In this document: positions 1,709-44,415 of the stretch, piece after piece | How positions within the stretch are numbered: the first letter of the stretch is position 1 | How the letters are laid out: each line of letters begins with the position of its first letter | Assembly (NCBI GenBank): GCA_030602315.1 | Contig: JAUVZY010000003.1 | Span: 83,537-147,536 of the forward strand | From: Pseudomonadaceae bacterium | GTDB lineage: Bacteria > Pseudomonadota > Gammaproteobacteria > Pseudomonadales > Pseudomonadaceae | Reading direction: 5' to 3' | Length of the DNA: 64,000 nt | The notes under the pieces: generated by a model | Database searches by the model: none | Told to the model about the DNA's origin: nothing | The model's input: the letters and a program-made list of their open reading frames with translations, nothing else | Position numbers and translations under genes: made by a program

Positions 1709-2146
1709 CGGCCAGCTCCGGCGCTGGATCGCGCGCCGCCGCGCCACCCGTCGGGCGCGGGGCGTGTTTGCGCTCCGGCGGTGGAACGCAGCGCCGAAAC
1801 GCGAAGTCACAAAGCCCGAGCCAGACGAGCTGACGCTTGTTTGGTTTCCCCCGCAGTAGGCCGCCTCGAGCGTTGGCCTGACGTTCCGCTTTCACCACCG
1901 CAGCCACCCGCTCGCTCGGTTTCGATAAGGCGAGCGCCGGCTGTGCGATGCCAAGGAAAGCTGTTTCCCAGGGAGTGCGTATGCATGGTGGCCGCCGTCA
2001 CCGTGCCGGCAAGGGCGCGCGCTGCAGACGCTCCCTGTGACGGGTGAGGTCGGGCGGTAGCGTGTCTGGTGTGCGCCAGATGGGGCATGCCGCGATCTTT
2101 CCCGACCGTGCGGCGCTGCCGCTGGTCCGACTGCGAGGATCACCCA
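1709..2146 (+). other. Long non-coding leader of EPS cluster 1
   Basis: About 440 bases between the pepN terminator and the first EPS gene. The open frames inside have no plausible RBS or recognisable product. The region holds an ops element (2053-2064) and a distant 7-bp inverted repeat, CAGGGAG (1969-1975) with CTCCCTG (2031-2037), lying just upstream of it. The promoter must be in this stretch, but I cannot place -35/-10 boxes with confidence. Confidence 0.6.
2053..2064 (+). promoter_or_regulatory. ops element (RfaH recruitment site) ahead of EPS cluster 1
   Basis: GGCGGTAGCGTG matches the classical ops core (part of JUMPstart) exactly, in the sense orientation, 83 bases before the first EPS start codon. 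In enterobacteria the paused RNA polymerase exposes this motif on the non-template strand. It recruits RfaH, which then suppresses termination across long polysaccharide operons. A 12-mer like this is expected only about 0.01-0.03 times in a window of this size and base composition. No obvious upstream remainder of the longer JUMPstart consensus is visible. Whether the genome encodes RfaH cannot be seen here. Confidence 0.8.
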
Positions 2147-4381
2147 ATGCCTGATGCGATCAGCCTTCCCGCAGCCGATCATGCCGAGGCGGAAATCAGC
2201 CTGCTCGAGCTGTTCGGTCGCCTGGTGGATAACCTGCCGTTCATCGCGTCGCTGGGTGCGCTGTTTGCCGTCCTGAGCCTGGTCTACGTGCTCCTGGCGC
2301 CGCCGGTCTACGAGGCCAGCGCGATGATCAAGGTGGATGCGCCCAAACCGGGGCTGGCGGCCTTCAGCGAGGACGGCATCGCCCTGCGCAGCGATCGCTC
2401 GCCGGCAGCGGCCGAGCAGCAGCTGGTCACCTCCATCGGCGTGTTGCTCGGGGCGGTGGAAAGCCTGGAATTGAACGTCCAGGTCAAGCCGCGGCGGGTG
2501 CCGGTGCTCGGTCGTCTGCTTGCCGAGCGTTTCGAGCGTGCTCGCCCCGGTGAGCTGAACAGCCCGCCGCCGGGCCTGTCAGGCTTTGGCTGGGGCGGTG
2601 AGCGCCTGGAGCTGGCGATGCTGTCGCTGCCATCGCACTTGCTCGAGCAGCCGCTCAGCCTGTGGGTCGAAGGCGAGGGGCGCTGGTCGCTGGAGGATCA
2701 CGACGGGCAACTGCTGGTCGAGGGCGTGGTGGGCGAGCGTGTCCATGGCAATGCCGTGGACATTGAGGTCAGCGCTTTGGAGGCCAACCCGGGGATGCGC
2801 TTTGAGCTGCTCAAGGAGCGGCCGCTGACCACCGCACTGCGCTATCGCCAGCATGTGGAGGTCACCGAGCTGGGCGATGACTCGGGGGTGCTGGCGCTGA
2901 CCCTGGAAAGCAGCGAGCCGGAGCAGGCTACGCGCATCCTCAACGAAATCGCCCGGCACTACGTGCGCGGCAATGCCGACCGCTCGGCGGCCGAGGCCAA
3001 TGCCAGTCTGGATTTCCTGCAGAACCAGCTGCCGGCGATGCGTCAGAAGCTCGAGTTGTCCGAGCAGGCGCTCAATGCCTATCAGGCCAAGGCGCAGTCG
3101 ATCGACATCAGCCTGGAGATCCAGGCGCTGCTCAACCAGATCGTCGAGCTGGATTCGCGCATCTCCGAACTGCGTCTGCAGCAGGCCGACATCGCCCGGC
3201 GCTTCACCCGCGAGCACCCGACCTACCAGACCATCGTCAGTCAGATCGACAGCCTCACCGCGCGTCAGCAGCGCCTGAGCCACAAGGTGGAAACGCTGCC
3301 CGAGACCCAGCAGGAGCTGGTGCGCCTGACCCGTGAGGTGAAGGTCAACAACGAGCTGTACATGCACCTGCTCAACCGCGCCCAGGAACTCGACGTGACG
3401 CGCAAGAGCACCATCGGCACCGCCCAGCTGGTGGACCCGGCGGTATACGACCCCAGCGAGCCGGTGCGCCCGCGCAAGGCGGTCACCGTGCTGGTCGCCA
3501 CCGTGGTCGGGCTGGTGCTGGCGGTCGGCCTGATCCTCCTGCGCAAGACGCTCTATCCGGGCATCGAGTCGTCCAGGGCGATCGAACAGGCCGGGCTGCC
3601 GGTATATGCCAGCGTGCCGAAAAGTGTCGCGCCGCGCTCGGCCTGGCGCTGGCGCTGGCGTGCGCCGCCGTTGCGCGATCCTGCCGCCGGCCTGCTGGCC
3701 AGCACCGATCCAGGCGATCCGGCGCTCGAAGCGGTGCGCACCCTGCGCACCGGGTTGCGCCACCTGCTCGCCGCGGCGCCGAACAACCGCTTGATGATCT
3801 GCGGGCCGACGCCGCTGGTCGGCAAGACCTTCATCGCTGCCAACCTGGCTGCGGTAATCGCCAGGACCGGCCAGCGCGTGTTGCTGATCGACGCCGACAT
3901 GCGCAAGGGCTATCTGCATGACTTGCTGCATACCAGCGCCGAGCCTGGACTGTCCGACCTTCTGGGCAAGCGCTGCGCCGCTCGCGCGGCGATCCGCCGG
4001 ACAGCCATCGACGGTGTGTGCCTGCTGCCGCGCGGCAGTCTGCCGTCGAACCCGTCGGAGTTGCTGATGCACCCCAGCTTCGCAACGCTCCTCGAAGAGC
4101 TCGGACGCAGCTTCGACGTGGTGCTGATCGACACGCCGCCGCTGTTGGCGGTGACCGATGCGCTGGTGGTCGGCCAGCTTGCCGGGGTGAACCTTCTGGT
4201 GGCGCGCTTCGATTTCACTGCACCGCGGGAGTTGGAGCAGTGCCTGCAGAGCGCCGCGCAAAATGGCGTGGCACTGCATGGCGCGGTGCTCAACGCGGTG
4301 GAGCGGCGTGCCTCGACGCGCTATGGCTACAGCAAGAGCTATCACCGTTACGACTACCGCCTCGGCCGGGCCGAAGCCTGA
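2147..4381 (+). CDS. Wzz/Wzc-type polysaccharide co-polymerase with tyrosine autokinase domain
   Basis: Inner-membrane BY-kinase that controls chain length and export of a Wzy-dependent polysaccharide (744 aa). An N-terminal Wzz domain has a membrane helix near residues 35-55. The large periplasmic part ends in a GNVR-like region, then a second helix (about 440-465) and the cytoplasmic kinase. Walker A is GPTPLVGKT (553-561), Walker A' is LLIDADMRKG with Asp582/584, and Walker B is VLIDTPP with Asp662. The tail is Tyr-rich (RYGYSKSYHRYDYR), as expected for trans-autophosphorylation. Start: ATG 2147 has GAGG 9-10 bases upstream and gives the usual Wzc N-terminus; the frame extends further upstream without support. 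No cognate phosphatase lies in this cluster. A paralogue sits at 44416-46620. Confidence 0.92.
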   Translation: MPDAISLPAADHAEAEISLLELFGRLVDNLPFIASLGALFAVLSLVYVLLAPPVYEASAMIKVDAPKPGLAAFSEDGIALRSDRSPAAAEQQLVTSIGVLLGAVESLELNVQVKPRRVPVLGRLLAERFERARPGELNSPPPGLSGFGWGGERLELAMLSLPSHLLEQPLSLWVEGEGRWSLEDHDGQLLVEGVVGERVHGNAVDIEVSALEANPGMRFELLKERPLTTALRYRQHVEVTELGDDSGVLALTLESSEPEQATRILNEIARHYVRGNADRSAAEANASLDFLQNQLPAMRQKLELSEQALNAYQAKAQSIDISLEIQALLNQIVELDSRISELRLQQADIARRFTREHPTYQTIVSQIDSLTARQQRLSHKVETLPETQQELVRLTREVKVNNELYMHLLNRAQELDVTRKSTIGTAQLVDPAVYDPSEPVRPRKAVTVLVATVVGLVLAVGLILLRKTLYPGIESSRAIEQAGLPVYASVPKSVAPRSAWRWRWRAPPLRDPAAGLLASTDPGDPALEAVRTLRTGLRHLLAAAPNNRLMICGPTPLVGKTFIAANLAAVIARTGQRVLLIDADMRKGYLHDLLHTSAEPGLSDLLGKRCAARAAIRRTAIDGVCLLPRGSLPSNPSELLMHPSFATLLEELGRSFDVVLIDTPPLLAVTDALVVGQLAGVNLLVARFDFTAPRELEQCLQSAAQNGVALHGAVLNAVERRASTRYGYSKSYHRYDYRLGRAEA

Positions 4382-4399
4382 GTCGTGGCGGAGTCGGAG

Positions 4400-5680
4400 A
4401 TGAGCAGCAAGTCGCTCGGGGCCAGCGCGTCCGCGGGCCGGCGCCCGTCGCTGGGGCAATGGAACTGGGCGCTGCTCGATCAGGCGCTGGTCAGTGGCAG
4501 CAACTTTCTGGTCGGCCTGCTGCTGGTGCGCTACCTGGGCATGGAGCAGTACGGGCGCTATGTGCTGGCCTGGATGCTGGTGCAGTTCGCCTTGAGCGTG
4601 CAGAGCGCGCTGGTGGTCGCGCCGATGCTGTCGTTGGCCCCGACTTTGGAGAGCGAGCGGCGCAAGGCCTACTACGATGCCACGCTGGTATTGCAGGCGG
4701 GGCTGCTGGTGGTCCTGGCCGCGGGGCTGGGCGTGGCCTGGTTGCTGCCGGCGGCCTGGCTGCCCGCCTGGTTGGATGGCGAGACGCTACCGGTGCTGGG
4801 CGCCTGTCTGTTGCTGGTGCTGGCCCAGGACTACCTGCGGCGGGCGTTGTTTTCGCGGCACGCGGCGCGGCGTGCGTTCGTGCTGGACATGCTCGCCTAC
4901 GGCTTGCAGTTGCCGCTGCTGCTGTGGGTGCTGCAGGGCGAGGCGTCGCCTACCCGGGCGTTGCTGGTGATCGCCCTGGCCATGCTGCTGGCGCTGCTTC
5001 CCGGCGGCTACTGGGTAAGGCCGCGCTGGCCGGCGGCTGACGTGCTGGGCGAGACGGCGCGGCGGCATTGGCGCTCGTCGCGCTGGCTGCTCGGTTCGGC
5101 GCTCTTGCAGTGGCTGTCGGCCAACTACTTCCTGCTGGTTGCCGGGGTGCTGCTCGGGCCGGTCATGGTGGGGGCGATTCGCGCGGCGCAGAACCTGCTG
5201 GGACTGACCCATATCCTGTTCCAGGGGTTGGAAAACGTAGTGCCGGGCCAGGCCAGCGCGCGCCTTGCGCAGGATGGCCCCGAGGCGCTCGTTGGGTATA
5301 TCGGACGCACCGCGCTGGTGCTGTTGCTGGTAACCGGCGCAGTTGCCGGTGCCGCCGCGCTGTGCGCCGAGCCGCTGCTCGGCTTTGTCTATGGCGAGGT
5401 CAGCGCGACGGCGATCGCCGCGCTCGGCTGGTTCGTGCCGTTCTACATGCTGGCGGCGCTGGTGCTGCCGCTGCGCGCGGGGCTGCGCAGTCTCGAGCGC
5501 ACCCGGGCGATCTTCTTCGCGCAGCTTGGCTGTGCGCTGTTCGCCCTGGCGCTAGCGCATCCTGTGGTGGCGCGCTGGCAGTTGGACGGGGTGATGGCGG
5601 GGATGGTGTTCAGTTCGCTGGCCACCGCGCTGGGCCTGGGGCTGGCCCTGCGCCGTGCGGCGCGTTGCAGGCAGGGGTAG
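4400..5680 (+). CDS. Wzx-type flippase / polysaccharide transporter (MATE/MVF-like)
   Basis: Integral membrane protein of about 426 aa with 12 or more hydrophobic segments. It starts with the typical NWALLDQALVSGSNFLVGLLLVRYLG-like region of oligosaccharide flippases. Such proteins move undecaprenyl-diphosphate-linked repeat units from the cytoplasmic to the periplasmic face. A GTG at 4385 is in frame, but ATG 4400 is preferred because GGAG (4390-4393) sits 6 bases before it. It lies 18 bases after the kinase stop and is followed 2 bases later by the polymerase ATG, so it is within an operon. This is the only flippase in the window; EPS cluster 2 has none. Confidence 0.85.
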   Translation: MSSKSLGASASAGRRPSLGQWNWALLDQALVSGSNFLVGLLLVRYLGMEQYGRYVLAWMLVQFALSVQSALVVAPMLSLAPTLESERRKAYYDATLVLQAGLLVVLAAGLGVAWLLPAAWLPAWLDGETLPVLGACLLLVLAQDYLRRALFSRHAARRAFVLDMLAYGLQLPLLLWVLQGEASPTRALLVIALAMLLALLPGGYWVRPRWPAADVLGETARRHWRSSRWLLGSALLQWLSANYFLLVAGVLLGPVMVGAIRAAQNLLGLTHILFQGLENVVPGQASARLAQDGPEALVGYIGRTALVLLLVTGAVAGAAALCAEPLLGFVYGEVSATAIAALGWFVPFYMLAALVLPLRAGLRSLERTRAIFFAQLGCALFALALAHPVVARWQLDGVMAGMVFSSLATALGLGLALRRAARCRQG

Positions 5681-5682
5681 AC

Positions 5683-6792
5683 ATGCTTACGCGGCTGGGG
5701 TTTTTCGTCCTGCTGTTTCCGGTGGCGCTGCTGCAATCGCTGCCGGCGGCGCTGATCGGGGCGGGGCTGTGGCTGTATTCGTTCGCCGTGCGGCCGAAGC
5801 TCAACCTGCTCGATCTTGCGCTCGGGCTGCTGTTGCTGGCGCTCGGGCTGTCATGGACGAGCGCGCCGGACTATGGCCGCAGCTTCATCGACACCCATGT
5901 GGCCTCGTATCTGGTGTTTCTGTTCACCCTGCGCTTTCTCTACGCCTGTCGTGCCGAACTGCTGCGTTTCGTCGTCGATCTGCCGTTGTACGGCTACCTG
6001 GCGCTGTGTGCGTTCTATCTGGTGGTGCAACTGAAGGTCGGTTACGAGTACGAGGTGGGCACCCTGGAAGCGTTCCTGCTGATGCGCCTGGTGCTCGATC
6101 CGCGCGTGCGCCAGCCGCTTTTGGCCTTGCTGGTCGCCTACCTGCTGTTGATGTACGCGGTTTCCACCCGCGGCACCCCGCTGGTCATCGCGCTGATCGT
6201 GCTGACGGTGCAGTGGCTGCGGCCGCCGCGGCTGCTGCTGCGCACGGCCTACCTGGCGGTTTTGCTGGGCACGCCGTTGCTGGGGCTGCTGCTGTCGGCC
6301 GAGCTGACCGACAGGCTGAGTGTGGTGGACGACAACGCGTCGATCCGCTTCGAGATGATCAAGGGCGCCAGCGCCAACCTCGGGCTGCAACAGGTGCTGT
6401 TCGGCAGCGGCTTCGGCGAGCCTTTTCGCGCGCCGGACTACGCCTACGCCTTTCGCCATCCGCTTCTGAACGATCCGTACTGGGTGCATCAGGTGTCCAA
6501 CCACAACTCGCTGTTCGACCTGTTCCTGCGGCTGGGGCTGCCGGCCTATGCGCTGTTCTGCCTGGTCTTTCTCGGCGTCTGGCGACTGCGCGAGGGATTG
6601 CCGCCGGCCTACTACACACTGCTGTTCGTGGTGCTGTTTTCGCTGTCGATCAACGCTTATCTGGACAAGACCAAGCTGGCGCCCTGCATCGCCGTGCTGG
6701 TGGCCGGCATCCTGTTCTGCGTCCCGCGCAGCGCCGGCGAGCGCGGCGTGCCGCGGGTGGGGCGCTGGGCTGTGCGGGGGCAGCGCGGATGA
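5683..6792 (+). CDS. O-antigen polymerase/ligase-like membrane protein (Wzy candidate)
   Basis: About 369 aa with about 10 hydrophobic segments. The late periplasmic stretch VSNHNSLFDLFLRLGLPAY is typical of the Wzy/WaaL superfamily, where a conserved His-Asn-Ser-containing motif precedes the last helices. It probably polymerises lipid-linked repeat units at the periplasmic face. The open frame extends far upstream in shadow of the flippase gene; ATG 5683 is chosen because it begins the hydrophobic N-terminus (MLTRLGFFVLLFPVALL) and has AGGGG just before it. Its TGA overlaps the next ATG (ATGA), indicating translational coupling. Wzy versus WaaL activity cannot be told from sequence, but the context favours Wzy. 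Confidence 0.78.
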   Translation: MLTRLGFFVLLFPVALLQSLPAALIGAGLWLYSFAVRPKLNLLDLALGLLLLALGLSWTSAPDYGRSFIDTHVASYLVFLFTLRFLYACRAELLRFVVDLPLYGYLALCAFYLVVQLKVGYEYEVGTLEAFLLMRLVLDPRVRQPLLALLVAYLLLMYAVSTRGTPLVIALIVLTVQWLRPPRLLLRTAYLAVLLGTPLLGLLLSAELTDRLSVVDDNASIRFEMIKGASANLGLQQVLFGSGFGEPFRAPDYAYAFRHPLLNDPYWVHQVSNHNSLFDLFLRLGLPAYALFCLVFLGVWRLREGLPPAYYTLLFVVLFSLSINAYLDKTKLAPCIAVLVAGILFCVPRSAGERGVPRVGRWAVRGQRG

Positions 6793-8051
6793 GCAAGCGC
6801 ATCCTGTTGTCGGCCTTTGCCTGCGACCCGGCCATGGGCTCGGAGCCCTATGTGGGCTGGAACTGGCTGCGCCAGCTGCTGGCTGCCTATCCCGGCCCGC
6901 TGTTGCTGTTGACCCGGCAGCAGCATGCCGCGCCGGTGCGGGCGGCGTTGCCGGCGGAGGAGGCGGCGCGGCTGGAGGTGCTGGCGTTCGATCTGCCGGG
7001 GTTCGCCGGTCTGGATCACCGGCATCGGCTGATGAAGCTCTACTACGTGGTCTGGCAGTGCGCCGCGCTGCTGGTGGTGCTGTGGCGCCAAGGCCGGCGG
7101 CAGGACATCAGCCTGATCCACCACTGCACCTACAACGTGGTGGACATGCCCGGCCTGCTCTGGCTGGTGCCGGGCGCGGCGTTTCTCTGGGGGCCGATCG
7201 GCGGTGGTCAGGTGCCACCGGCCTGGGCGGCGCCGATCTACGGCCGTGGCTGGGCACGCGAACGGCGCCGGCGGCGGATGAAGCGGCTGATCCGCTACAA
7301 CCCGCTGGTGCTGCTGGCGGCCTGGCGCGCCCGGGCGATCCTGGTGGCCAATGAAGACACCCTGGCTGTTCTGCCGCGCTTTGCCCAGGCCAAGAGCGTG
7401 CGCCTGCTGGAAACCGCGGTGAGTACCACCGGCCCGCTGCGCCCGCGCGGGCAGGGCGACAGGTTCCGCCTGCTCTGGGTCGGCCAGCTGGAGCCGCGCA
7501 AGGGGCTGGTCCTGCTGTTGCAGGCATTGCGCACCCTGCGCGAGACGGCGCCGACGCTGTTCGCGCGTCTCGAGCTAGCGGTGGTCGGCAGCGGCCCGGA
7601 ACAGGCAGCGATGCAGCAGGCGGTGGCCGACTGGGCTCTGGCCGGGCAGGTACGCCTGATCGGTGCGCTGGACTATCAGGCCGTGCAGGCGCTGTACGCC
7701 CGTGCCGACCTGTTCGTTTTCACCAGCGTGCAGGACACCTCCGGCAACGTGCTGCTGGAGGCGCTTTCCAACGGCCTGCCGGCGTTGGCCTTCGATCATC
7801 AGGGCGCCCGCGAGATCCTCGCCGGTGGCGGGGGTCGCCGCCTGCCGGCCGACTCGCTGGAGCAGGCGGTTGAGGGGTTGGTGAGCGCCATCACCGAGCT
7901 GGCGGATGCGCCTGCGCAGTTGCAGGCGTATGCCGAAGCGGCAATCGACAACGTCAACCAGCGCTTTCTCTGGGAACAGAAGGGCGTCGTACTGCGGAGG
8001 GTGCTCGATGAAATTCTCCAAGATCCAGAAAGCCTTGAGTTTCTGTCGTAG
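6789..8051 (+). CDS. GT4-family glycosyltransferase
   Basis: About 420 aa, GT-B fold. The N-terminus, [20 protein letters not shown], is characteristic of a GT4 subgroup found in EPS clusters. The C-terminal nucleotide-sugar domain has [20 protein letters not shown], then VVGSGPE, and the E-x7-E-like region [20 protein letters not shown]. It is a cytoplasmic or membrane-associated enzyme that adds a sugar to the growing lipid-linked repeat unit. Donor and acceptor cannot be inferred. ATG 6789 overlaps the polymerase stop (ATGA). The 3' end overlaps the acetyltransferase gene by 44 bases. Confidence 0.88.
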
Positions 8052-8523
8052 GGCGCGCATCCGCCTGCTGGGCGGGCCGGTGCGCTTTGGCCGCAACGTC
8101 TACATCGGGCGCAACTCCAGCATCAGCGGCATCTACGGGCTGACCTTCGGCGATGACGTCTACATCGGCAAGAACGTGACCATCGAGGTGGAGGGGCGGA
8201 TCGGCTCGGGGGTGCTGATCGCCAATAACGTCGGCATCGTCGGCCGGCGCGACCACGACGTGTTCAACAACCATCTGCCGGCGTTCCATGCGCGCACCGT
8301 GCGCGAGGAGCGCAGCCTGTCCACGCCGACGGTGATCGAGGACGGGGTGTGGATCGGCTTCGGCGCGGTGGTCATGTCCGGGGTGACCATCGGTGCCAAT
8401 GCGGTGGTCGCCGCCGGCTCGGTAGTCACTCGCGACGTGCCGGCCCACAGCATCGTCGGCGGCAATCCGGCGCGGGTGATTTCCAGTCGCCTCGAACAGA
8501 AGATCCAGCTGGTCCAGGCCTGA
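8008..8523 (+). CDS. Left-handed beta-helix (hexapeptide) acyltransferase
   Basis: About 171 aa. Hexapeptide repeats run almost throughout ([17 protein letters not shown], then [13 protein letters not shown], then [20 protein letters not shown]). The end, [13 protein letters not shown], is that of WcaF/maltose-acetyltransferase-like O-acetyltransferases, which act as trimers with acetyl-CoA. It probably acetylates a sugar of the EPS repeat unit. The frame is open upstream, but ATG 8008 has a strong CGGAGGG RBS (7994-8000) and lies inside the 3' end of the preceding GT gene (44-base overlap), a coupling pattern. A 9-bp inverted repeat follows the stop. Confidence 0.85.
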
Positions 8524-8524
8524 T

Positions 8525-8580
8525 CGGCCGACTTTCCTTTTCGCCGCCCGCGCGCCTGACCCGTGCGAAGCAGTCGGCCG
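8525..8580 (+). repeat. Intercistronic inverted repeat in EPS cluster 1
   Basis: Perfect 9-base arms CGGCCGACT (8525-8533) and AGTCGGCCG (8572-8580) around a 38-base, partly T-rich loop. It lies between the acetyltransferase and pyruvyltransferase genes. There is no T-run after the right arm, so an attenuator or processing hairpin is more likely than a terminator. Confidence 0.5.
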
Positions 8581-8611
8581 GCCGTACTCGTTCACGTACA
8601 GAAGGCCCTCC

Positions 8612-9469
8612 ATGCTCAACGCATTCCATCAGCTTGCCGAGGACATCAAGCGCCAGGCTGGCGACCGCCGCATCGTCTACATCCCCAATGCCGGCAACTG
8701 GGGCGACGGGCTGATTCGCCACGCCACCCGGCAGTTCTTTAGCGATTACGCCATCGAAGTCAGCGAACTGTCGCTCAGCCACCGCTGGGGGCGGCTCCAC
8801 CTGATGCCCTGGCTGCTGCCGGGGCTGGTCGAGCGGTACTTCTTCATCTACGGCGGCGGTGGGGCCTGGTGCGAAACCTACCCCGGAGGCATGCGCCTGG
8901 TGCGTTACCTGCTGCGCTTCACGGAGCATGTGCTGGTGCTGCCGAGCACCTATGAGATCGGCCTGCCCGGCGAGCGGGGCACCTTCTACAGCCGCGGCCG
9001 GCGTGAAAGCCTGCAGACCATGCCCGAGGCGCGCTTTTGCCACGACATGGCGCTGTACCTGCATGCCCGCGCGCCGGGCCAGGCGGTGCCTTATCTGGCG
9101 ACCAAGGCGACCGGCATCTTCATCCGCCAGGATCGCGAATCGGCGCTCGGTAGCAGCGGCCTGCCCGAGCAGGCCTGGGACATCAGCGCCATGGGCAACG
9201 AGCGTTCCTGCGGCGACATCTTCCTGCGCAGCGTGGCGGCCTACCGCACCATCTTCACCGACCGTCTGCATGTGGCCATCGCCGGCTGCATGAGCGGGCG
9301 ATCGGTGCATCTGATGAGCGGCAACTATTTCAAGATCCGCGAGATTCACCAGGCCTCGCTGGCCGAGGAGTTTCCTGACCTGCGCCTGTACAGCCAGCCG
9401 CGCAGCTTTCTGGCGGCCCTGCAGCAGCGACTGGACAGCGCGGCGCAGCCCGGGGCGGTGCTGCCATGA
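8612..9469 (+). CDS. Polysaccharide pyruvyltransferase family protein
   Basis: About 285 aa with the family's hallmarks. IVYIPNAGNWGDGLIR lies near the N-terminus, a glycine-rich IYGGGGAWCE follows, and IFTDRLHVAIAGCMSG lies near the C-terminus. These enzymes transfer pyruvate from phosphoenolpyruvate to a sugar as a ketal, adding negative charge. Similar folds also occur in EpsO/CsaB-like and WcaK-like proteins. ATG 8612 has GAAGG upstream. It sits 88 bases after the acetyltransferase and just before another GT4 gene. Together with the acetyltransferase it suggests a decorated, acidic EPS. Confidence 0.82.
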   Translation: MLNAFHQLAEDIKRQAGDRRIVYIPNAGNWGDGLIRHATRQFFSDYAIEVSELSLSHRWGRLHLMPWLLPGLVERYFFIYGGGGAWCETYPGGMRLVRYLLRFTEHVLVLPSTYEIGLPGERGTFYSRGRRESLQTMPEARFCHDMALYLHARAPGQAVPYLATKATGIFIRQDRESALGSSGLPEQAWDISAMGNERSCGDIFLRSVAAYRTIFTDRLHVAIAGCMSGRSVHLMSGNYFKIREIHQASLAEEFPDLRLYSQPRSFLAALQQRLDSAAQPGAVLP

Positions 9470-9512
9470 ACCGGGCCCCCATCCAGCAGGCTGGCCAGGC
9501 GAGGTGCGCAGG

Positions 9513-10601
9513 ATGCTGAAGATCACCTTGGTGTCGTTTCCCATCGATTACGGCAACGTGACCTTGCAGAGCAATCTGGTGCGCCTGCTCGGCGAACGCT
9601 GCGACCTGGTTCACCATGTGTTCTCGGCCAGCGAGGCACCCGGCCTGGGCGCGCGCCTGAACGCGCCGCGGCGCGTGTGGCGCCGGCTGGGCGAGATGGC
9701 GCGGTTGCGCAGGGTGTGTGCCGAGGCGCGGCGCGAAGGGCGCATCCTGCTGTTTCAGCAGATCAGTCCGGCGCTGTTCGCCTGGCCGTTTCGCCGGGGC
9801 GTACCGAGCTACATTCTCAGCGACTGGACACGCAAGCTGTACGAGCCCCTGCTCGGCGAGCGGTTGTCCAGCGCGCCGGTGACCTGGCTGCACGCCCGCG
9901 TGCTGCGCTCGGTGGATGGCGTCCTGGCGTTCACCGCGGCGGCCGCCGATTCGCTGCGCCGCGACTATGGCGTGCCCGAGCCCCGCCTGCACCGTCTGGC
10001 CATGCCATTCGACGTACAGGCCACCCCGGTGGCGCCCGCCGAGCGCCCCGGTCCGCTGCGTGTGTTGTTCGTCGGTGGCGATTTCGAGCGCAAGGGCGGC
10101 CCGGCACTGCTGCGCTGGTATGCCAGGCAACGACCGGGCGCGCTGCGCCTGACGGTGCTGACCCAGTCGGCGGTGCAGCTGCCCGAGGGCGTAACGCTGC
10201 TGCGCAACGATCCGACCAAGGGCGCCCGTGATCTCTTCTTCGAGCATGACCTGTTCGTGCTGCCGACGCTTTGCGACGGCTACCCGCAGGCGCTTGGCGA
10301 GGCCGCCAGTGCCGGCCTGGCGCTGGTCACCACCGATAAGGCACTGGGCGCGCCGGAAATCATCGATGAGGGGCGCAACGGCCATGTGGTGCGCAGCGAG
10401 GCCGAGCTGGCTGCGCGGCTCGCCGAACTGATGCGCGACCCGGCGCGGCTGGCCGCCTACAAAGCGCACAGTCGGGCAAAGATGCTTGCGCAGTTCGCCT
10501 TCGAGCCGGTGTTCGCCCAGCTGGCGGCGATTCTCCACCCCCCCGCACACGGGTTGCCGCCCGTTGCAGCCAGGTCTTCCCCTACCGGCCAGGTCACCTA
10601 G
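9513..10601 (+). CDS. GT4-family glycosyltransferase
   Basis: About 362 aa. Start MLKITLVSFPIDYGNVTL; the C-terminal domain has LRVLFVGGDFERKGG and the donor-binding region FVLPTLCDGYPQALGEAASAG, followed by EIIDEGRNGHVV. This is the usual GT-B/GT4 layout with Glu-x7-Glu-like spacing. It probably adds one sugar to the EPS repeat unit. A GTG at 9504 is in frame, but ATG 9513 with GCGAGG about 9 bases upstream gives the better N-terminus. It shares no close resemblance with the GT at 6789, so it probably has a different specificity. Confidence 0.85.
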   Translation: MLKITLVSFPIDYGNVTLQSNLVRLLGERCDLVHHVFSASEAPGLGARLNAPRRVWRRLGEMARLRRVCAEARREGRILLFQQISPALFAWPFRRGVPSYILSDWTRKLYEPLLGERLSSAPVTWLHARVLRSVDGVLAFTAAAADSLRRDYGVPEPRLHRLAMPFDVQATPVAPAERPGPLRVLFVGGDFERKGGPALLRWYARQRPGALRLTVLTQSAVQLPEGVTLLRNDPTKGARDLFFEHDLFVLPTLCDGYPQALGEAASAGLALVTTDKALGAPEIIDEGRNGHVVRSEAELAARLAELMRDPARLAAYKAHSRAKMLAQFAFEPVFAQLAAILHPPAHGLPPVAARSSPTGQVT

Positions 10602-10653
10602 CTCGCGCCGGGTGATTGCCTGCCGATCCCTTGGAACCCGGAGGCTTGAACCG

Positions 10654-11484
10654 ATGGAAACCAGAGACCGCAATGCCGGCACCGTACGTTCGGTGATCGG
10701 CCTGCCGATCGACAGCCTGAGCTGGCCGATCGCACTGTCCCGGCTTTCCCGCTGGGCAGCGGCACGGGAGAGCCGTTACGTGTGCATCTGCAATGTGCAC
10801 TCGGTGGTCACCGCGCGGCTCGACCCGCGCTTTGCCATGATCATCCGTCAGGCCGACATGGCCACGCCGGACGGCGCGCCGATCGCCTGGCTGATGCGCC
10901 GGCTGGGCGCGCCGCGCCAGGAGCGGATCAACGGGCCGGATCTGATGTGGCTGTACTGCGCCCAGGCCGCCCCGCGCGAGGAGTCGATCTTTCTCTACGG
11001 CGGCCACCACGGCACCTTGCATATCCTCGAGCAGATGCTGCGCAAGCATTTTCCGGAGCTGCGCATCGCCGGGGCCTACTCGCCCCCGTACCGCGCGCTG
11101 ACCGCCGAAGAGGACGAGGCGGTGGTGGCGATGATCAACGCCTCGGGCGCCGGGACGGTGTGGGTCAGCCTCGGTTGCCCGAAGCAGGAGCGGTGGATGG
11201 CCGAGCATCGCGGGCGGATCCAGGCGACCATGATCGGCGTCGGCGCGGCCTTCGATTACCACGCCGGCACCATCACCCGCGCGCCGCTGTGGATGCAGCG
11301 CGCGGGGCTGGAATGGTTCCACCGCCTGTGCTGCGAGCCGCGCCGCCTGTGGCGCCGCTACCTGTACACCAACACCCTGTTCACCCTGTATGCCAGCTGG
11401 CAGCTGCTCGGCCGACGCATGACCCCCGACGGCGAGGCAGCCCTGGCCGGGTTTGGCGAGCGCGGGCGCAAGTCGTCCGGTTGA
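10654..11484 (+). CDS. WecG/TagA/CpsF-family glycosyltransferase
   Basis: About 276 aa, GT26 family. Motifs are CICNVHSVVTARLDP, TPDGAPIAWLMRRLG, WVSLGCPKQERWM and GVGAAFDYHAGTITRAP, followed by the amphipathic, Arg-rich C-terminal membrane-binding tail (EWFHRLCCEPRRLWRRY). Members transfer UDP- or GDP-activated sugars such as ManNAcA, ManNAc or Glc to lipid-linked intermediates, often as an early or final step. GGAGG at 10640-10644 fixes the ATG start. It is the last gene of EPS cluster 1 and ends 6 bases from the convergent batD stop, with no terminator between them. A paralogue lies in cluster 2 (40115-40879). Confidence 0.9.
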   Translation: METRDRNAGTVRSVIGLPIDSLSWPIALSRLSRWAAARESRYVCICNVHSVVTARLDPRFAMIIRQADMATPDGAPIAWLMRRLGAPRQERINGPDLMWLYCAQAAPREESIFLYGGHHGTLHILEQMLRKHFPELRIAGAYSPPYRALTAEEDEAVVAMINASGAGTVWVSLGCPKQERWMAEHRGRIQATMIGVGAAFDYHAGTITRAPLWMQRAGLEWFHRLCCEPRRLWRRYLYTNTLFTLYASWQLLGRRMTPDGEAALAGFGERGRKSSG

Positions 11485-25836: not shown

Positions 25837-25990
25837 AGGGTGAAGCCCTCAGTGGTTGACTGTGTTCCCGTTGGCCTAGAAGGCCGGCAGGTGGCCTGCC
25901 AGTGGTGTCCGCTGCCGGCGTGGCGGACGACCCTCCCTCCCATTGCAGGAGGGGTTGTTCGAGTTCTACTCCAACGATTCGGCGGCGGGA
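25837..25990 (-). ncRNA. rmf 5' leader RNA (rmf RNA motif)
   Basis: Three perfect stems lie upstream of rmf: GGCAGG/CCTGCC (25886-25891 with 25895-25900), GTCCGC/GCGGAC (25907-25912 with 25923-25928) and CCCTCC/GGAGGG (25935-25940 with 25948-25953), plus the small stem over the SD (25837-25849). A conserved rmf RNA motif has been described in 5' regions of Pseudomonas rmf genes, and this position fits. The boundaries are my estimate; A/T-rich sequence beyond 25990 could hold the promoter. Confidence 0.7.
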
Positions 25991-38703: not shown

Positions 38704-39795
38704 TTAGAGGTTGTTTTCGATGGCGGCACCGGTGGCAAGCGCCGAGGCCGACGGGAGGAGCTGGCTGATGAAGCGGTTCCAGCGGGTGATATTGGCCGGG
38801 CCGACGAACACCACATCCTGCGGCTGAAGCGGGAAGTGCTTGGCCAGGGCGAACGCCGCCGGCGATTTGGCATCCAGCTGATACACCGTCGCACCTTCGT
38901 TGGCGATATTTTCTGCCCCGCGGATCACATACACCGCCTTGCCGTCGGCTGTCTCCTGGCGCAGGCCGCCGGCAGTACCGAGGGCGTCCATCAGATTCAG
39001 GCTGGTGGTCTTGAACACCATCGATTGGGGACGCAGCACTTCGCCGAGTACATAGACCTTTTTCTGATCGTTGTACGGCAGGTGAATCTGATCGCCATCC
39101 TTTAGGTAGACCTGATTGAGCCACGAGTCGGACTGGTTCAACTGGTCAAGGTTGAGCATGTACTCGCGTCCGTCGCGCTTGAGCACCAAGGTGCTGAGGT
39201 CGGCATCGCCCGTGTTCACACCCGCCTGGCCGACCGCTTGAACCAGGGTCATCGGCGAGGCGGTGACCGGAATTTCACCGGCCTGGTTGAAGGCACCCGA
39301 GACCACCACGCGCTGGCTGCCGTAGCGCAGAACGCCGACGTCCACCTGCGGACTGTCGATGTAGTTGGTCAGACGGCGGGCAATGGTCGAGCGCAGCTCC
39401 TCGAGCGTCATGCCGGCGGCCTTTACCTGGCCGATGTAGGGATAGAACAGCGTGCCGTCCGGGCGTACCAGGCGACCGTTGGCGTCCAGCTGTTGCTGGG
39501 TGCCGGCCGGCGAAGTCAGCTCCGGGTGATCCCACACAGTGATGTACAAAAGATCGTTCGGGCCAATCCGGTACGGCTCGGGTTTGAAGCTGGTCAGCTC
39601 TTGCTTGGCCGTGCTGCTGCTGTTTTGCAGCAGCCCGCTGGTCAGCAGGTCGCGGTTGATCGGCACGAGCCGGACGTCGTCCTTCTCCACGACACCGTCG
39701 CGCTTGAATTTGTCGGGGTCCAGATGCTGACCGGGCGCAAAGGCACAGCCCTGTAGGACGAGAATCGAGGCGGCGAGGCAGGTAAGTGCTTTCAT
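38704..39795 (-). CDS. Wza-type outer-membrane polysaccharide export lipoprotein
   Basis: 363 aa. Lipoprotein signal MKALTCLAASILVLQGC, lipobox LQGC with Cys17. Then the export domain YRIGPNDLLYITVWDHPEL and two SLBB-like domains (YGSQRVVVSGAFNQAGEIPV, then KKVYVLGEVLRPQSM). It probably forms the octameric outer-membrane channel. The only Wza in the window; cluster 1 has none. Upstream 319 bases could contain its own promoter. Confidence 0.92.
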   Translation of the reverse strand: MKALTCLAASILVLQGCAFAPGQHLDPDKFKRDGVVEKDDVRLVPINRDLLTSGLLQNSSSTAKQELTSFKPEPYRIGPNDLLYITVWDHPELTSPAGTQQQLDANGRLVRPDGTLFYPYIGQVKAAGMTLEELRSTIARRLTNYIDSPQVDVGVLRYGSQRVVVSGAFNQAGEIPVTASPMTLVQAVGQAGVNTGDADLSTLVLKRDGREYMLNLDQLNQSDSWLNQVYLKDGDQIHLPYNDQKKVYVLGEVLRPQSMVFKTTSLNLMDALGTAGGLRQETADGKAVYVIRGAENIANEGATVYQLDAKSPAAFALAKHFPLQPQDVVFVGPANITRWNRFISQLLPSASALATGAAIENNL

Positions 39796-40114
39796 CTATT
39801 CATCCTTGACGCAAGGAGTTCTGGGCCGATTCCACGCAGACCCTGGCGGTCGCGGTGGGGCGTGACGGACGGACGGACTGCGAGCGACGGGGAGGTGCTT
39901 TGCCTCCAGGCTCTTGGAAGGTGATGCGTGAGCAGTTAGTCAAGGTGGCCTCCCTTATTGGCTTGCGCGTCGAACGCACGCTCGGAGCATTCCGTATCGG
40001 GTTCGCTGCGACATCCACATGGCGTCGAGTTACTGACTGACGCAGGAATAGACCGCTTCGTTAAACAACGGTTCATCCCCGACCGCCGGCTTTCCCTAGC
40101 ACGGCGGTCGGGGA
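39796..40114. other. Gene-free stretch between wza and the wecG-type gene
   Basis: 319 bases. Its wecG-proximal end is a 14-bp perfect inverted repeat (listed separately). The rest lacks a credible gene; a promoter for wza on the minus strand would be expected here but I cannot place boxes. RBS-like AAGGA precedes wza. Confidence 0.5.
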
Positions 40115-40115
40115 T
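40075..40115 (-). terminator. Long perfect hairpin at the end of the wecG-type gene
   Basis: Perfect 14-base arms ATCCCCGACCGCCG (40075-40088) and CGGCGGTCGGGGAT (40102-40115), loop 13 bases. It touches the stop codon. No U-tract follows on the minus strand, so it may be a 3'-end stabiliser or attenuator before wza. Confidence 0.6.
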
Positions 40116-40879
40116 TACCGGTCCTGTTCGGCGGGCCTTATCGGGAGTTTCTGGCTGCGTTCGCGCCAGTAGGCAGGGATGATGTAGAACAGATCGTGCA
40201 GATAGCGACGGCCAAGGCGGCGCGGCTCGGTACACAGCCTGTGCAGCCACTCCAGGCGCGCGTTCTGCATCCAGCGCGGCGCCCGTTTGACGGTGCCGGT
40301 GGCGAAGGCGATCGAGGCGCCGATGCACAGGCCGATACCGTCGCGCTCATGGCTTTTGACCATGCTTGCGAGCAACTCCTGGCGCGGCGCACCAACCGCA
40401 TAGAAGATCAGCTGCGAGGGGTGTTCGCGGATGAAGCTCAAGCAGCGCTCGACTTCCAGCGGATCGTTGATAAAGCCCATCGGAGGGTTGTAGTGGTGAA
40501 TCTCGATGCCCGGAAAGCGGCGCCGCAGGCGACTGCATTCGCTGTCGCTTGAGCCGATCAGCACCAGCGAAAGCCCTTCGGCCTGCGCCAGACGCAGCAG
40601 GTCGACTGTCAGGTCGCTGCCGGGAATCACCTCCGGCACTGCCACACCGAGCGAGCGCAGCAGCGGCAGCAGCACCCGACTGTCGCAGACTCGCAGTCTG
40701 GCCTTGGCATAGGCTCGGCGGAAGGGCTCGCTGTCTTGCAGCTGGGCCAGATGGTCCACATTGGGCGTGACGATGTAGGAGTACGGCTGGCTCATTCCAT
40801 CGCGGATCAGCTTCAGCAAGTCGGCCTTGCTGCCGGTGAAGAAATCCACGCCGAACGCTTGGCTGTTTTCATTCGACAC
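40115..40879 (-). CDS. WecG/TagA/CpsF-family glycosyltransferase
   Basis: 254 aa, GT26. YSYIVTPNVDHLAQLQDSEP, then VCDSRVLLPLLRSLG, IFYAVGAPRQELL, and GASIAFATGTVKRAP followed by the Arg-rich membrane-binding tail RLEWLHRLCTEPRRLGRRY. GTG start at 40879, with AAGGAG 9 bases before; it lies in the 3' end of the GT2 gene (11-base overlap), so coupled translation is likely. Paralogue of the gene at 10654-11484, but divergent enough to suggest another sugar. Confidence 0.88.
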   Translation of the reverse strand: MSNENSQAFGVDFFTGSKADLLKLIRDGMSQPYSYIVTPNVDHLAQLQDSEPFRRAYAKARLRVCDSRVLLPLLRSLGVAVPEVIPGSDLTVDLLRLAQAEGLSLVLIGSSDSECSRLRRRFPGIEIHHYNPPMGFINDPLEVERCLSFIREHPSQLIFYAVGAPRQELLASMVKSHERDGIGLCIGASIAFATGTVKRAPRWMQNARLEWLHRLCTEPRRLGRRYLHDLFYIIPAYWRERSQKLPIRPAEQDR

Positions 40880-41750
40880 TCATCGTTACTCCTTTGAAGG
40901 CACCCTTGATCCCGGACCAGGCCAGAGCCGGGCGCTTGAACTCTTTGATCACCGTGATGGTGGAAAGCATGCAAGCCGAGGTGAAGGCGAACAGGAGGCC
41001 GTAGAAGCGCTTGTTGAAGCGGGTGGCGGCACGGTTGCGGTAGTAGTGGTAGAACGCCGAGCGTCCGCCCGAGCTCAGCGAGCCGTGGTGGTAAATGACG
41101 CTTTGTGCAACCACCTTGATCGAGATGCCGAGGTTCTTGGCCCGGTACTGCCAGTCAACCTCTTCCGAATACATGAAGTAGCGCTCGTCCATCAGTCCGA
41201 TGCGGTCGAGCAGAGTGGCGGAAAAGGCCAGGCTGCAACCCATCAGGTAATCGGGCTCCTGATGGTCGCGCTGGACGTCGGCCAGCGAGCGTCCCTTGCC
41301 GAGCAACCTGGCCTTGCCCAGCAGCGGGTACAGCTTGCCGCCGCCAAAACATTCCAGATCGCCGTTTTCGGCGTTCAGTACCACCGAGCCGACGAAGCGC
41401 CTGTCGTCCTCGAGCAGTGCCTGCTCCAGCGGGGCGAAGGCGTCGCGATCGAGATAGGTGTCGTTGTTCAGAATCCAGAAATGCCGTGCGTCTGGCAGGT
41501 TCTCGCGGGCCCAGCGCAGGGCAAAGTTGTTGCCCCCGGCAAAGCCGTTGTTCTGTGGGCTGGCCAGCAGGGTCACCTTGTCCATGGCCTTGTCGGTCTT
41601 CCAGCGCTCGAACGCCTCCATCGAGCCGTCGCCCGAATCGTTGTCGATAAGCAGGACGCGATCGATGCCCGGACAGTGCGCCAACACGCTCTCGACGCAG
41701 CTGATCGACTCAGAAGCTGCCTTGTAGTTGAGGATAAGTGCGATATTCAT
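40869..41750 (-). CDS. GT2-family glycosyltransferase
   Basis: About 293 aa, rhamnosyltransferase-like GT-A fold. MNIALILNYKAASESISCVES, then LLIDNDSGDGS, the donor/metal DXD-like ILNNDTYLD, and the acceptor region EPDYLMGCSLAFSA with MYSEEVDWQYRAK (catalytic ED). A C-terminal hydrophobic helix may associate with the membrane. ATG 41750 has AGGAG 8 bases upstream. Overlaps the polymerase gene by 41 bases and the wecG-type gene by 11 bases. Confidence 0.88.
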   Translation of the reverse strand: MNIALILNYKAASESISCVESVLAHCPGIDRVLLIDNDSGDGSMEAFERWKTDKAMDKVTLLASPQNNGFAGGNNFALRWARENLPDARHFWILNNDTYLDRDAFAPLEQALLEDDRRFVGSVVLNAENGDLECFGGGKLYPLLGKARLLGKGRSLADVQRDHQEPDYLMGCSLAFSATLLDRIGLMDERYFMYSEEVDWQYRAKNLGISIKVVAQSVIYHHGSLSSGGRSAFYHYYRNRAATRFNKRFYGLLFAFTSACMLSTITVIKEFKRPALAWSGIKGAFKGVTMSVE

Positions 41751-42975
41751 GGACCTGCTCCTGACTACGACGATGTTGGGCACTCAGCGAATGCATGACG
41801 AACAGCATCGCGAACACGTTTTGGGTGTATTCGAGCAAGCCGTTCAGCGGCCAGATGACGATGAACGCCAGGACTGCCGCATAGATGAATGACATGTCGT
41901 GGTAGATGTTTCGGGCGATGCGCTGATACAGGTACAGCGTGACCGGCACGATGAGAAAGGTCAGGAAGCCGAAGCGGAACAGCAGGCCGAAGATTCCCAC
42001 GTCGGCGAGGAAGAAATGTTCGCCGAAGAACGGCACGAATCCGTTCTGCCACATCAAGGACAACGAGCCGCTGGGCAGCCAGTGCATCTGGTCGAGGTGG
42101 TTGAAGATCGTGGCGATGGTGTTCGGGCGCACGTTGTCTTCGACCCCGCTCTGAAACTGGTCGGTATAGAAGCTGATGTCGATGCCCAGGTACTGCAGGA
42201 TCTCGGGGAACAGGTAGATCGGCGCGACCAGCACCGCCACGCTCATGCCCCAGACGATCGCCTTGGCGCGCAGATAGAACAGCGAGAAGCACAGGCAAAG
42301 GGCGATCAGCTGGCGCGTCTGGGTGGCGAACACCAGTGTCAGCAGCAGGATCGCGGCAATCACCAGATAAGGCAGCTTGGCGCGCGGCGAGTCATCGATC
42401 AGCGAAGCGCCGCGACTCCACAGCGCGATGCAATAGAAGAAGGCAAAGCACAGCAGGTAAGGGCCGATCGAGGAGCGGTCTGGTCGGTCCCACGAGGCCA
42501 CCTCGTCACGCCAGTCCGGCACCACACCGAACTTGAAACCCCAGGACAGCGCCGCCGCCAGCAATGCCACGCTCAGGAAGGCGCGCTCGAACTGTGTCGG
42601 AGTCACACGGCGCCCTAAAAACAGCAGCGGTGCGAAACCCAGCGAGAACAGCACTCGGCGTTCTTCGATGAAGCCGTAAATCAGCGGCTGACCATAGACG
42701 AGATGGGAAAACACCATGGGCATGCCGATGAACACCACACAGGTGTAGATGCCGTAGTACATCAGCAGGCGAAATTCCCGTGCGGTCTGATCGGTGCTCG
42801 CCAGCATGACCAGAAACACGAACCCGATGCAGGCCACCAGATACAGCTCGTTCAATCCGCGTATGCCGATCGGGTTGTGGGTGCTGTCGCCGAACAGCGT
42901 GAAGTGCATGATCAGCACCACCACCAGCATGGGGTAGAACAGAAAGCGCGAGGTGAAAGTCGGGTTGGAAATCAT
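41710..42975 (-). CDS. O-antigen polymerase/ligase-like membrane protein (Wzy candidate)
   Basis: 421 aa, about ten or more hydrophobic segments. After the middle helices a periplasmic loop (SGVEDNVRPNTIATIFNHLD, then FFGEHFFLADVGIFGLLFRF) has the shape seen in Wzy proteins, with clustered His/Asn/Asp residues. Probably polymerises cluster 2 repeat units. Start ATG 42975; RBS weak. The downstream GT2 gene starts 41 bases inside it. Not a close relative of the polymerase in cluster 1, which argues for two repeat-unit specificities or an accessory role. Confidence 0.75.
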   Translation of the reverse strand: MISNPTFTSRFLFYPMLVVVLIMHFTLFGDSTHNPIGIRGLNELYLVACIGFVFLVMLASTDQTAREFRLLMYYGIYTCVVFIGMPMVFSHLVYGQPLIYGFIEERRVLFSLGFAPLLFLGRRVTPTQFERAFLSVALLAAALSWGFKFGVVPDWRDEVASWDRPDRSSIGPYLLCFAFFYCIALWSRGASLIDDSPRAKLPYLVIAAILLLTLVFATQTRQLIALCLCFSLFYLRAKAIVWGMSVAVLVAPIYLFPEILQYLGIDISFYTDQFQSGVEDNVRPNTIATIFNHLDQMHWLPSGSLSLMWQNGFVPFFGEHFFLADVGIFGLLFRFGFLTFLIVPVTLYLYQRIARNIYHDMSFIYAAVLAFIVIWPLNGLLEYTQNVFAMLFVMHSLSAQHRRSQEQVHEYRTYPQLQGSF

Positions 42976-43261
42976 CTCTGGCCACGATCCTTGAGCGAGA
43001 CTGGACCCACATGTAGTTGTTCTAATGCCAGCGCTGGGTCGCGCGTGCCGCTGCGCTTATGTCGAGGCGCTCGAGGTAGCGCCTGATACCCGCAGCGGGC
43101 GGGCTCCTTTGCAACACTCGGCAACACTGCGCCCAGGCGGTACGACGGCCTTGCGCAGCCAGGCAATGCGTTGCGCCGTTTCGATTGGTATGCCCTGCTT
43201 TGGACTGGGTTGCTCCGATGCGGTTTCATGCGGCGCATTGCCCTTCGTCGGCCAATGCGGC
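42976..43261. other. Gap between GH5 and polymerase genes
   Basis: 286 bases. Apparent reading frames here have no RBS or domain support. It splits cluster 2 into an upstream set (wcaJ, wzb, wzc, GH5) and a downstream set (wzy, GT2, wecG-type), so a separate promoter is possible. I see no clear promoter boxes. Confidence 0.45.
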
Positions 43262-44338
43262 TCATGGCGCGCCACCGGCCTCGGTGTCAGGAGTAGGGCC
43301 GATTTCCTGGCAGTCGTTGGCGATGTGCTTTTGCAGTACGTGCATTTGCGGGCGGTCGAGGTTCTTGCGCGGCTCGATGGCCAGGCGATAGCTGCCCCAG
43401 TTCGGTCCGGCAGCCCAATAGGCGCTGGGGATGCACTGCTCGTTGAGGTAGGCGAGCAGGTTGTCCATCGCCTGCAGCATCGAGGGAGCGTCATCCGGCA
43501 CGCCGTACTCGCCGATGAAGCCCTTGTAGCCGTGCTGCTTGAGCCATTCCACGAACGGGCGTACCCGCTCGACGCCGAGCATCGGGTCGACTTCCTCCGG
43601 TTCGGCGTAACGGCCGGAGAAGTCCTTGTCGAAATAGACATGCGCCTCATAGACGAGGCGATTGGCCGGGTCCTGTATATGCAGGTTGCCGTTCACCCGC
43701 GGCCAGTGCCAGGCGTTGGCCCAGCGGTCGCCCTCGATGAAGATCAGCGTGTGCGGATCAACTTTGCGAATCGCATCGACCGCCGCTTGCGCTGCGCCGG
43801 GCCACAGGCCTTGCGTGCTATGGGGCTCGTTCATGATGTCGTAGCCGTAGAGCGCCGGATGCCCCTTCAGCTCGCTGGCCAGCTTGCGCCAGACATCGGC
43901 GAATGCCTCGTAGGGAACTGCTGGGGTGCCGATCAGCTCGCCGTGGTAGCGGGCATAGTTGTGCATGTCCACGATCACCCGCTGTTCGTGCATCGCGGCC
44001 AGGTCGAGGGCCTTCTTCAGGCGCCGGATTTCCTGGTGATCGAGGCGGGCGCCGAGGCTGTGCTGAACGCGCTCCCAGCGAAACGGGAAGCGGATCAGAC
44101 GGATGTTCTTGTCGCGGTAGTAAGCGAAGTGGCGCTTTTCCGGATAGAAATAGTCGGTGCCGAACTTGCCGGGCAGCTTCTGATAGCCGAACTCGGCGCC
44201 GGCCATGTTGACGCCTGCCAGCGGTATGCCCGACGGCTGCTGTGCGGCGGCGAAGCCGGACAGCGCCACGAGCATGACCAGCGCCAGCGTTCGGAGCGCA
44301 TGCAGGTGCTTGCTGAATCCATTGATCGGGTACGTCAT
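43262..44338 (-). CDS. Secreted GH5-family glycoside hydrolase
   Basis: 358 aa. Signal peptide LRTLALVMLVALSGFAAAQ; (beta/alpha)8 cellulase fold. Predicted acid/base Glu171 in YDIMNEPH, nucleophile Glu277 in FIGEYGV, and supporting Arg84-region, His126, His233 and Trp308. Members cleave beta-glucans, mannans and other beta-linked polymers. In an EPS operon it probably trims or recycles the polymer in the periplasm, as PslG, AlgL or BcsZ do for other polysaccharides. Separated from wzc by a stable hairpin. Confidence 0.88.
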   Translation of the reverse strand: MTYPINGFSKHLHALRTLALVMLVALSGFAAAQQPSGIPLAGVNMAGAEFGYQKLPGKFGTDYFYPEKRHFAYYRDKNIRLIRFPFRWERVQHSLGARLDHQEIRRLKKALDLAAMHEQRVIVDMHNYARYHGELIGTPAVPYEAFADVWRKLASELKGHPALYGYDIMNEPHSTQGLWPGAAQAAVDAIRKVDPHTLIFIEGDRWANAWHWPRVNGNLHIQDPANRLVYEAHVYFDKDFSGRYAEPEEVDPMLGVERVRPFVEWLKQHGYKGFIGEYGVPDDAPSMLQAMDNLLAYLNEQCIPSAYWAAGPNWGSYRLAIEPRKNLDRPQMHVLQKHIANDCQEIGPTPDTEAGGAP

Positions 44339-44389
44339 CGGTCCTTTGGTCCCTGACGAAAGCGTGTGCTGCCCTGGGCTGGCGGGGAG

Positions 44390-44409: not shown

Positions 44410-44415
44410 GGGTGC

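Follow-up and report, generated by a model that had tools for sequence, protein, structure and literature searches.

An exact ops element ahead of an exopolysaccharide operon in a Pseudomonadaceae bacterium as a probable RfaH control point

RfaH-ops control is familiar chiefly from gut bacteria, and its regulons in Enterobacterales include rfa/waa, rfb, kps, hly and tra. Here we analyse a window of 64,000 nucleotides (the whole stretch of DNA under study; contig JAUVZY010000003.1, positions 83,537 to 147,536, of the Pseudomonadaceae assembly GCA_030602315.1) in which one copy of the ops 12-mer GGCGGTAGCGTG, the RfaH recruitment and pause signal, precedes an exopolysaccharide (EPS) operon. In the available part of a review (PMC7819879), RfaH is described as encoded by single cistrons and loaP, taA and upxY as adjoining their targets; LoaP relies on an RNA hairpin and counteracts NusA (PMC12691694, available in part). 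About 60% of Pseudomonadaceae reportedly have no RfaH according to a 2020 survey (PMC7593976), hence about 40% carry it, and RfaH scored over the cut-off in 125 of the 198 genomes that were searched in the family of the window genome. An initial sequence-only reading of the window held RfaH-type control in a pseudomonad to be notable, a point that these figures weaken: RfaH in Pseudomonadaceae is already published, and the window case adds to the known RfaH-ops systems.

The ops element lies at 2053-2064 (+), in sense orientation to the EPS operon and in sequence classed as noncoding by a codon model, and no second exact copy occurs on either strand of the window. A gap of 82 nt separates it from the ATG of the first gene, wzc (2147), which opens a run of eight closely spaced same-strand genes of wzc-wzx-wzy-glycosyltransferase type (2147-11484); a long operon for a surface or secreted polymer downstream, as is characteristic of RfaH regulons, is thus provided by this 9.3-kb gene run. 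The sequence-only reading was right about the exact sense-oriented element in an EPS leader, its position before the operon and the operon length (given as about 9 kb), and slightly off in the spacing, which it put at 83 bases. Under a single-base model, the chance expectation for the exact 12-mer is 0.028 per window, in line with the 0.01-0.03 estimated earlier, and 1.2 per 2.79-Mb assembly; none of 100 dinucleotide shuffles of the window held any copy. Relaxed matching gave no excess, either for sites with up to two mismatches in the window (8 observed, 12.2 expected), for one-mismatch sites genome-wide (29, versus 52 for the reversed motif) or for the relaxed pattern GGCGGTAGNNTG (6 sites, versus 8 for the reversed control). 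The ops signal therefore consists of exact matches and their position, and exact copies alone were counted in the analysis. On the basis of sequence, position, strand, the presence of rfaH in the genome and the family-wide association of noncoding ops with RfaH, we read the window 12-mer as a working ops element and putative RfaH-ops control point of the EPS operon, with a probability of roughly 0.86.

Exact ops occurs five times in the genome, and the reversed control does not occur. Three of the five copies are noncoding by the codon model, sense-oriented and directly upstream of polysaccharide genes, namely the window site (contig C28) and the copies at C43:930 and C12:8407; the C22 and C24 copies lie inside coding sequence. 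The C43 copy (locus L190) is found 79 nt past the rfaH stop codon and 48 nt before the gene for a BBP2_2 outer-membrane protein, after which come genes that were judged by eye to be export-protein-like, wzc-like, ugd-like, flippase-like and glycosyltransferase-like. The C12 copy (locus L191) stands 32 nt before a wzc-like gene. A check for further ops sites in the genome thus yielded two other ops-led polysaccharide gene sets, one of them directly behind rfaH, and these, with the presence of rfaH, support the RfaH-ops interpretation of the sequence-only reading. In L190 (338-10661), rfaH is directly upstream of the ops-led EPS operon, and the contig end falls within that operon. In L191, a one-mismatch ops (GTCGGTAGCGTG, C12:8314-8325, minus strand) lies on the opposite strand, some 80 nt ahead of the exact copy.

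The genome was also searched for an rfaH homologue and holds one. In the assembly (2.79 Mb, 78% complete), a single protein with a NusG-type domain was found, which scores 170 bits against the RfaH equivalog model TIGR01955 (cut-off: 144.5). Its assignment as housekeeping NusG was rejected (nusG: 47.9 bits; cut-off: 135.7), as was its assignment as an UpxY/LoaP-type paralogue (UpxY: 75 bits, cut-off 100; LoaP: 47.3 bits, cut-off 125). The protein is identical to E. coli RfaH at 58 of 145 aligned residues, has its closest relative among the named loci in Stutzerimonas stutzeri (61%), and retains K10, Q13, R16, H20, F56, T72, R73, I93, F130 and R138. According to the part of PMC7593976 available, K10 and R73 contact ops DNA, F56 contacts RNA polymerase, and E48, I93 and F130 serve autoinhibition.

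Across the family, 168 of the 198 genomes carry at least one exact ops 12-mer. The 150 sites listed, from 67 genomes, were all classed as coding or noncoding with a codon-usage model, by which 473 of 2684 random control positions (17.6%) were called noncoding. Among these listed sites, RfaH-positive genomes hold 62 noncoding and 36 coding copies and RfaH-negative genomes 6 and 46, respectively, in counts that treat G103 and G184 as RfaH-positive (E-values of 2.1e-40 and 8.6e-39, below the cut-off), a post hoc choice. With the strict RfaH cut-off the corresponding numbers are 59 noncoding and 33 coding versus 9 and 49, and noncoding ops is present in 32/35 RfaH-positive versus 6/32 RfaH-negative genomes. 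Of the latter six, G056, G103 and G184 carry an RfaH-like match below the cut-off (E-values of 1.4e-41 to 8.6e-39), G195 has no NusG-type match whatsoever, as in an assembly gap, and G112 and G181 are unexplained exceptions. In G001, from the same genus as the window genome, no RfaH match exceeds the cut-off, and the single ops copy falls within coding sequence. Letter-identical ops leaders occur in genomes of this family (f1) and in records named Pseudomonas (L181 = L302, L166 = L312), which, together with the Stutzerimonas stutzeri match of the window genome's RfaH, points to Pseudomonadaceae as the family. A class-wide search with a 14-mer matched 8 of 369 genomes, our own included, and the other seven matches were judged by eye to be chance.

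Three other explanations of the window site were weighed. A 12-mer could have fallen into a leader of this GC-rich genome by chance: about one exact copy is expected per assembly, two of the five copies are in coding sequence, the window site is without the JUMPstart stem, and 25 of 30 wzc loci are without ops here. We consider this improbable, given the absence of ops from all shuffles of the window, the sense-oriented, noncoding placement of three of the five copies directly before polysaccharide genes (random positions being noncoding at a rate of 17.6%), and the RfaH encoded in the genome. Somewhat less probable again is a decayed remnant, in which the operon was acquired together with ops and RfaH control has since been lost or replaced; the lack of both JUMPstart hairpin and pseudoknot at the window site, the location of rfaH on another contig, and the situation in G001 would be in keeping with it, but all 12 ops positions are intact and the genome still encodes an RfaH that has K10 and R73. 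We give the least credence to a consensus pause site that acts without RfaH, for leader-RNA folding or NusG-dependent pausing. The available parts of two papers speak for it, in that ops agrees with the pause consensus (PMC6391919) and diverse polymerases pause at ops-like sequences (PMC7593976), but a pause-only role needs no RfaH, and noncoding exact ops tracks RfaH in the strict genome counts given above.

Several observations weigh against reading the window site as an RfaH-ops control point. The residue corresponding to E48 of E. coli RfaH (autoinhibition) is Q in the genome's RfaH, in which I93 and F130 are kept. An AlphaFold model (8-sequence alignment, pLDDT of 77.7) builds the C-terminal domain from strands, without the helices of the autoinhibited form; because the alignment has only 8 sequences, the model decides nothing on the closed state. 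Housekeeping NusG was not found in the 78%-complete assembly, so further NusG paralogues may be missing too. The C22 and C24 ops copies are probably chance, and the window ops is without the hairpin of at least 5 pairs that is seen at 36/68 noncoding sites of the family. Finally, exact ops lies within 700 nt upstream of wzc at only 5 of the 30 best wzc loci, our own included (L079, with no sequence available ahead of wzc, and L084, with about 590 nt, were both scored as ops-less), and the pairing of ops with wzc is therefore not universal. Conservation is thus mixed: noncoding ops tracks RfaH across the family, in favour of the RfaH-ops reading, and the wzc loci speak against it.

If the RfaH-ops reading holds, and the window operon works as E. 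coli RfaH targets do, RNA polymerase coming from a wzc promoter would pause at ops, where the exposed non-template strand would form a small ops hairpin. RfaH would bind this hairpin, open and stay on the polymerase, exclude NusG and Rho and recruit a ribosome, with the outcome that the 9.3-kb EPS operon would be transcribed as far as the distal glycosyltransferases. As rfaH lies in trans on C43, upstream of the second ops-led EPS operon, one RfaH would therefore coordinate three polysaccharide loci.

To describe the genes that follow ops in the family, the 68 noncoding sites were followed to 54 called genes, of which 49 were scanned (four from RfaH-negative genomes and the duplicate L174 were left out); at 12 of the 62 noncoding sites of RfaH-positive genomes, no gene was called within 1 kb after ops. 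Counts of first genes by Pfam family were mostly small (25 of the 53 families were listed) and included GDP_Man_Dehyd/Epimerase (5), Wzz (4), GNVR (4), UDPG_MGDP_dh (3), Wzy_C (3), LMWPc (2), BBP2_2 (2), Poly_export (2), Polysacc_synt (2) and Beta-Casp (6). Polysaccharide genes are prominent, not universal, behind noncoding ops. The Beta-CASP metallo-hydrolases, which are the first genes after ops in 6 of 49 cases instead of polysaccharide genes, probably come from genus g6 (L123-L145); there, the distance from rfaH to a downstream ops is about 37-42 kb, and G058 also shows one of 30 kb.

In many genomes rfaH and ops are much closer. Among the 36 RfaH-positive genomes with listed sites, 19 have an ops on the rfaH strand no more than 1 kb downstream of the rfaH match, and in 18 of these the distance is within 310 nt (G056, at 143.1 bits below the cut-off, is counted among the 36 and the 19). 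In named genomes, among the matches listed, a clear RfaH homologue is present in 13 records (two weak RfaH matches, L263 and L311, were excluded by the E-value limit), and in 11 of them ops lies 62-345 nt past the rfaH stop codon; the other two records, L291 and L319, have no linked downstream ops. The linked records include Stutzerimonas, several Pseudomonas, Serpens, Thalassolituus and a Nevskiaceae metagenome-assembled genome. At 16 of the 30 wzc loci, rfaH follows wzc (same strand, within 1.5 kb), with no ops upstream of wzc. That an ops-led operon often follows rfaH at a distance of a few hundred bases, despite the description of rfaH as a single cistron, looks new, and is relevant to the question of how a NusG paralogue acting in cis could turn into an RfaH acting in trans.

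Upstream of ops, many sites share a structure. A hairpin of at least 5 pairs that ends directly before ops was found at 36/68 noncoding sites, 17/82 coding sites and 209/1500 control positions in the family. Many pseudomonad sites follow the pattern CGTnCTCAGGA-n4-GACG-n2-AAATCCTGG-GGCGGTAGCGTG (alignment A1), in which helix 2 (CAGGA/TCCTG) is the counterpart of the Rfam JUMPstart stem and the bases preceding helix 2 pair with its loop to give a crossing helix 1. A JUMPstart (RF01707) scan of nine loci matched five, at 23.5-25.8 bits (gathering score: 35), and gave no match at the three loci of our own genome nor at L013. Alignment A1 comprises 28 pseudomonad sites, that is, 27 of 30 regular-expression matches (L174, L175 and L245 were omitted as duplicates or near-duplicates) together with L103, which was chosen by eye; A3 comprises 35 of 80 named loci, mostly enterobacterial, picked by eye; and A4 combines A1 with 20 of 23 listed sites (A1 repeats omitted) to give 48 sites, named records included. 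None of the three is a random sample, and sequence relatedness can inflate covariation scores. Sites of g18 were assessed solely by eye.

In A1, pairing reaches 77.9% in helix 1 and 99.3% in helix 2, and the covariation score is 0.225 versus 0.141 when shuffled (reached by 0/500 shuffles) and at most 0.087 when slid. A4 scores 0.240 versus 0.145 shuffled, and its helix 1 alone 0.307 versus 0.191 shuffled (0/500), with 0.144 as the maximum on sliding; pairing in helix 1 is 76.5% there, its outer pair fails at 30/48 sites, and pairs changed on both sides are in no clear excess, being reached by 93/500 shuffles. A3 scores 0.221 versus 0.125 shuffled (0/500) with few double changes in helix 1, and two of its five measures were no better than shuffled (pairs changed on both sides, 276/500; pair types, 211/500). 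When helix 1 was permuted with the best register left free, a stem of at least 4 pairs was found at 34/114 sites versus a mean of 19.5 and a maximum of 30 in 500 permutations, which is significant and weak. These alignments point to a covarying H-type pseudoknot (JUMPstart) before many pseudomonad and enterobacterial ops sites, which looks new: no publication on a JUMPstart pseudoknot, or on RfaH together with a pseudoknot, was found as judged by titles and abstracts, and Weinberg 2010 (PMC2864571, in the part covered, additional files excluded) describes a stem-loop for JUMPstart and pseudoknots for other motifs. Seven named loci (L265, L282, L297, L308, L317, L323, L331) form a distinct enterobacterial JUMPstart class, ACC..GGGC..GGT..GGCC before ops, whose ACC and GGT arms would by eye permit the same crossing topology with other letters.

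On balance, we lean towards a composite DNA/RNA signal for RfaH, in which an H-type pseudoknot would fold 5' of ops; a run of rfaH, pseudoknot, ops and polysaccharide operon would be common outside Enterobacterales, with RfaH beside one target and the others in trans, and the window operon would be a stripped-down trans target. Helix 1 would be CGTC/GACG-like in pseudomonads and CAG[T/C]/[G/A]CTG in enterobacteria, and helix 2 would be CAGGA/TCCTG or CTGG/CCAG, with a last linker that is often A-rich. By analogy with hairpin pauses, helix 2, which ends one nucleotide before ops, would clear the RNA exit channel with the polymerase at ops, where the pseudoknot could block backtracking or lengthen the pause during RfaH docking. 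Within the genus, the C43 ops has a 6-bp hairpin that ends 2 nt before it and the G002 ops a 5-bp hairpin. Directly upstream of the window ops, neither hairpin nor crossing helix was found, and we therefore call it a bare ops; if the pseudoknot adds to pausing, the window operon may recruit RfaH less strongly. The covarying pseudoknot offers a concrete structure, amenable to mutational testing, for the JUMPstart sequence upstream of ops.

The element sits in an intergenic leader (1670-2146, +) between the upstream gene and wzc, with a terminator-like hairpin and T-run behind the upstream gene (1676-1701, +; one found, shuffle mean of 0.4). No sigma-70 consensus promoter was found in the leader, and its RNA folding is unremarkable (z of -1.31). 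All genes of the operon are on the plus strand. The first encodes a wzc-like polysaccharide co-polymerase/BY-kinase (2147-4381; Wzz, WZC_N, GNVR and AAA_31), followed by a wzx-like flippase (4385-5680; MatE), a wzy-like polymerase (5683-6792; Wzy_C), a predicted group 1 glycosyltransferase (6789-8051; a gene call, with the function taken from reading the sequence and no domain scan), a hexapeptide acyltransferase (8008-8523; Pfam and gene call), a probable polysaccharide pyruvyl transferase (8612-9469; judged by eye, no Pfam match), a group 1 glycosyltransferase (9513-10601; Glyco_trans_1_4) and, as the last gene, a WecG/TagA-type glycosyltransferase (10654-11484; Pfam and gene call). A convergent gene lies after the operon end. 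A second EPS cluster is present in the window at 38707-48671 (-), with a wzc homologue (43%) and genes judged by eye to resemble wzb, Wza, WbaP and WecG. The best match to ops in the 329 bases ahead of its first gene has 5 mismatches; with no ops in its leader, this cluster provides a contrast to the first one within the window and should be independent. An Rfam scan of the window at the gathering threshold returned only rmf and one tRNA; the rmf leader RNA (RF01755, 74.9 bits) is at 25855-25973 (-).

With the window operon, a known switch of transcription elongation would reach pseudomonad exopolysaccharide, and RfaH regulons of the family can be sought through noncoding exact copies of ops. 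As in the RfaH-ops regulons of Enterobacterales, the identical 12-mer stands in the noncoding leader of a long surface-polysaccharide operon, in a genome with an RfaH equivalog that retains K10 and R73. Unlike the single-cistron RfaH of the review (PMC7819879, in the part available), rfaH in the family often immediately precedes an ops-led stretch, in the proportions given above for listed sites and named records. Like UpxY, LoaP and TaA, the genome's RfaH is encoded next to an operon that it would serve; unlike UpxY and LoaP, it scores below their cut-offs and above that of RfaH. The window site shares the terminal GGGCGGTAGCGTG with JUMPstart (RF01707) and differs from it in having no stem-loop directly upstream of GGGCGGTAGCGTG; unlike the RF01707 structure line, both clades, pseudomonads and enterobacteria, show a second, crossing helix. 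Similar gene neighbourhoods have been described in the parts available of two papers, neither of which mentions ops there: the EPS273 locus of Pseudomonas stutzeri 273 is an EPS locus with an RfaH-domain protein as proposed activator (PMC5532660), and in the lipopolysaccharide loci of Azotobacter, surface-polysaccharide clusters are directly distal to rfaH (PMC4465626).

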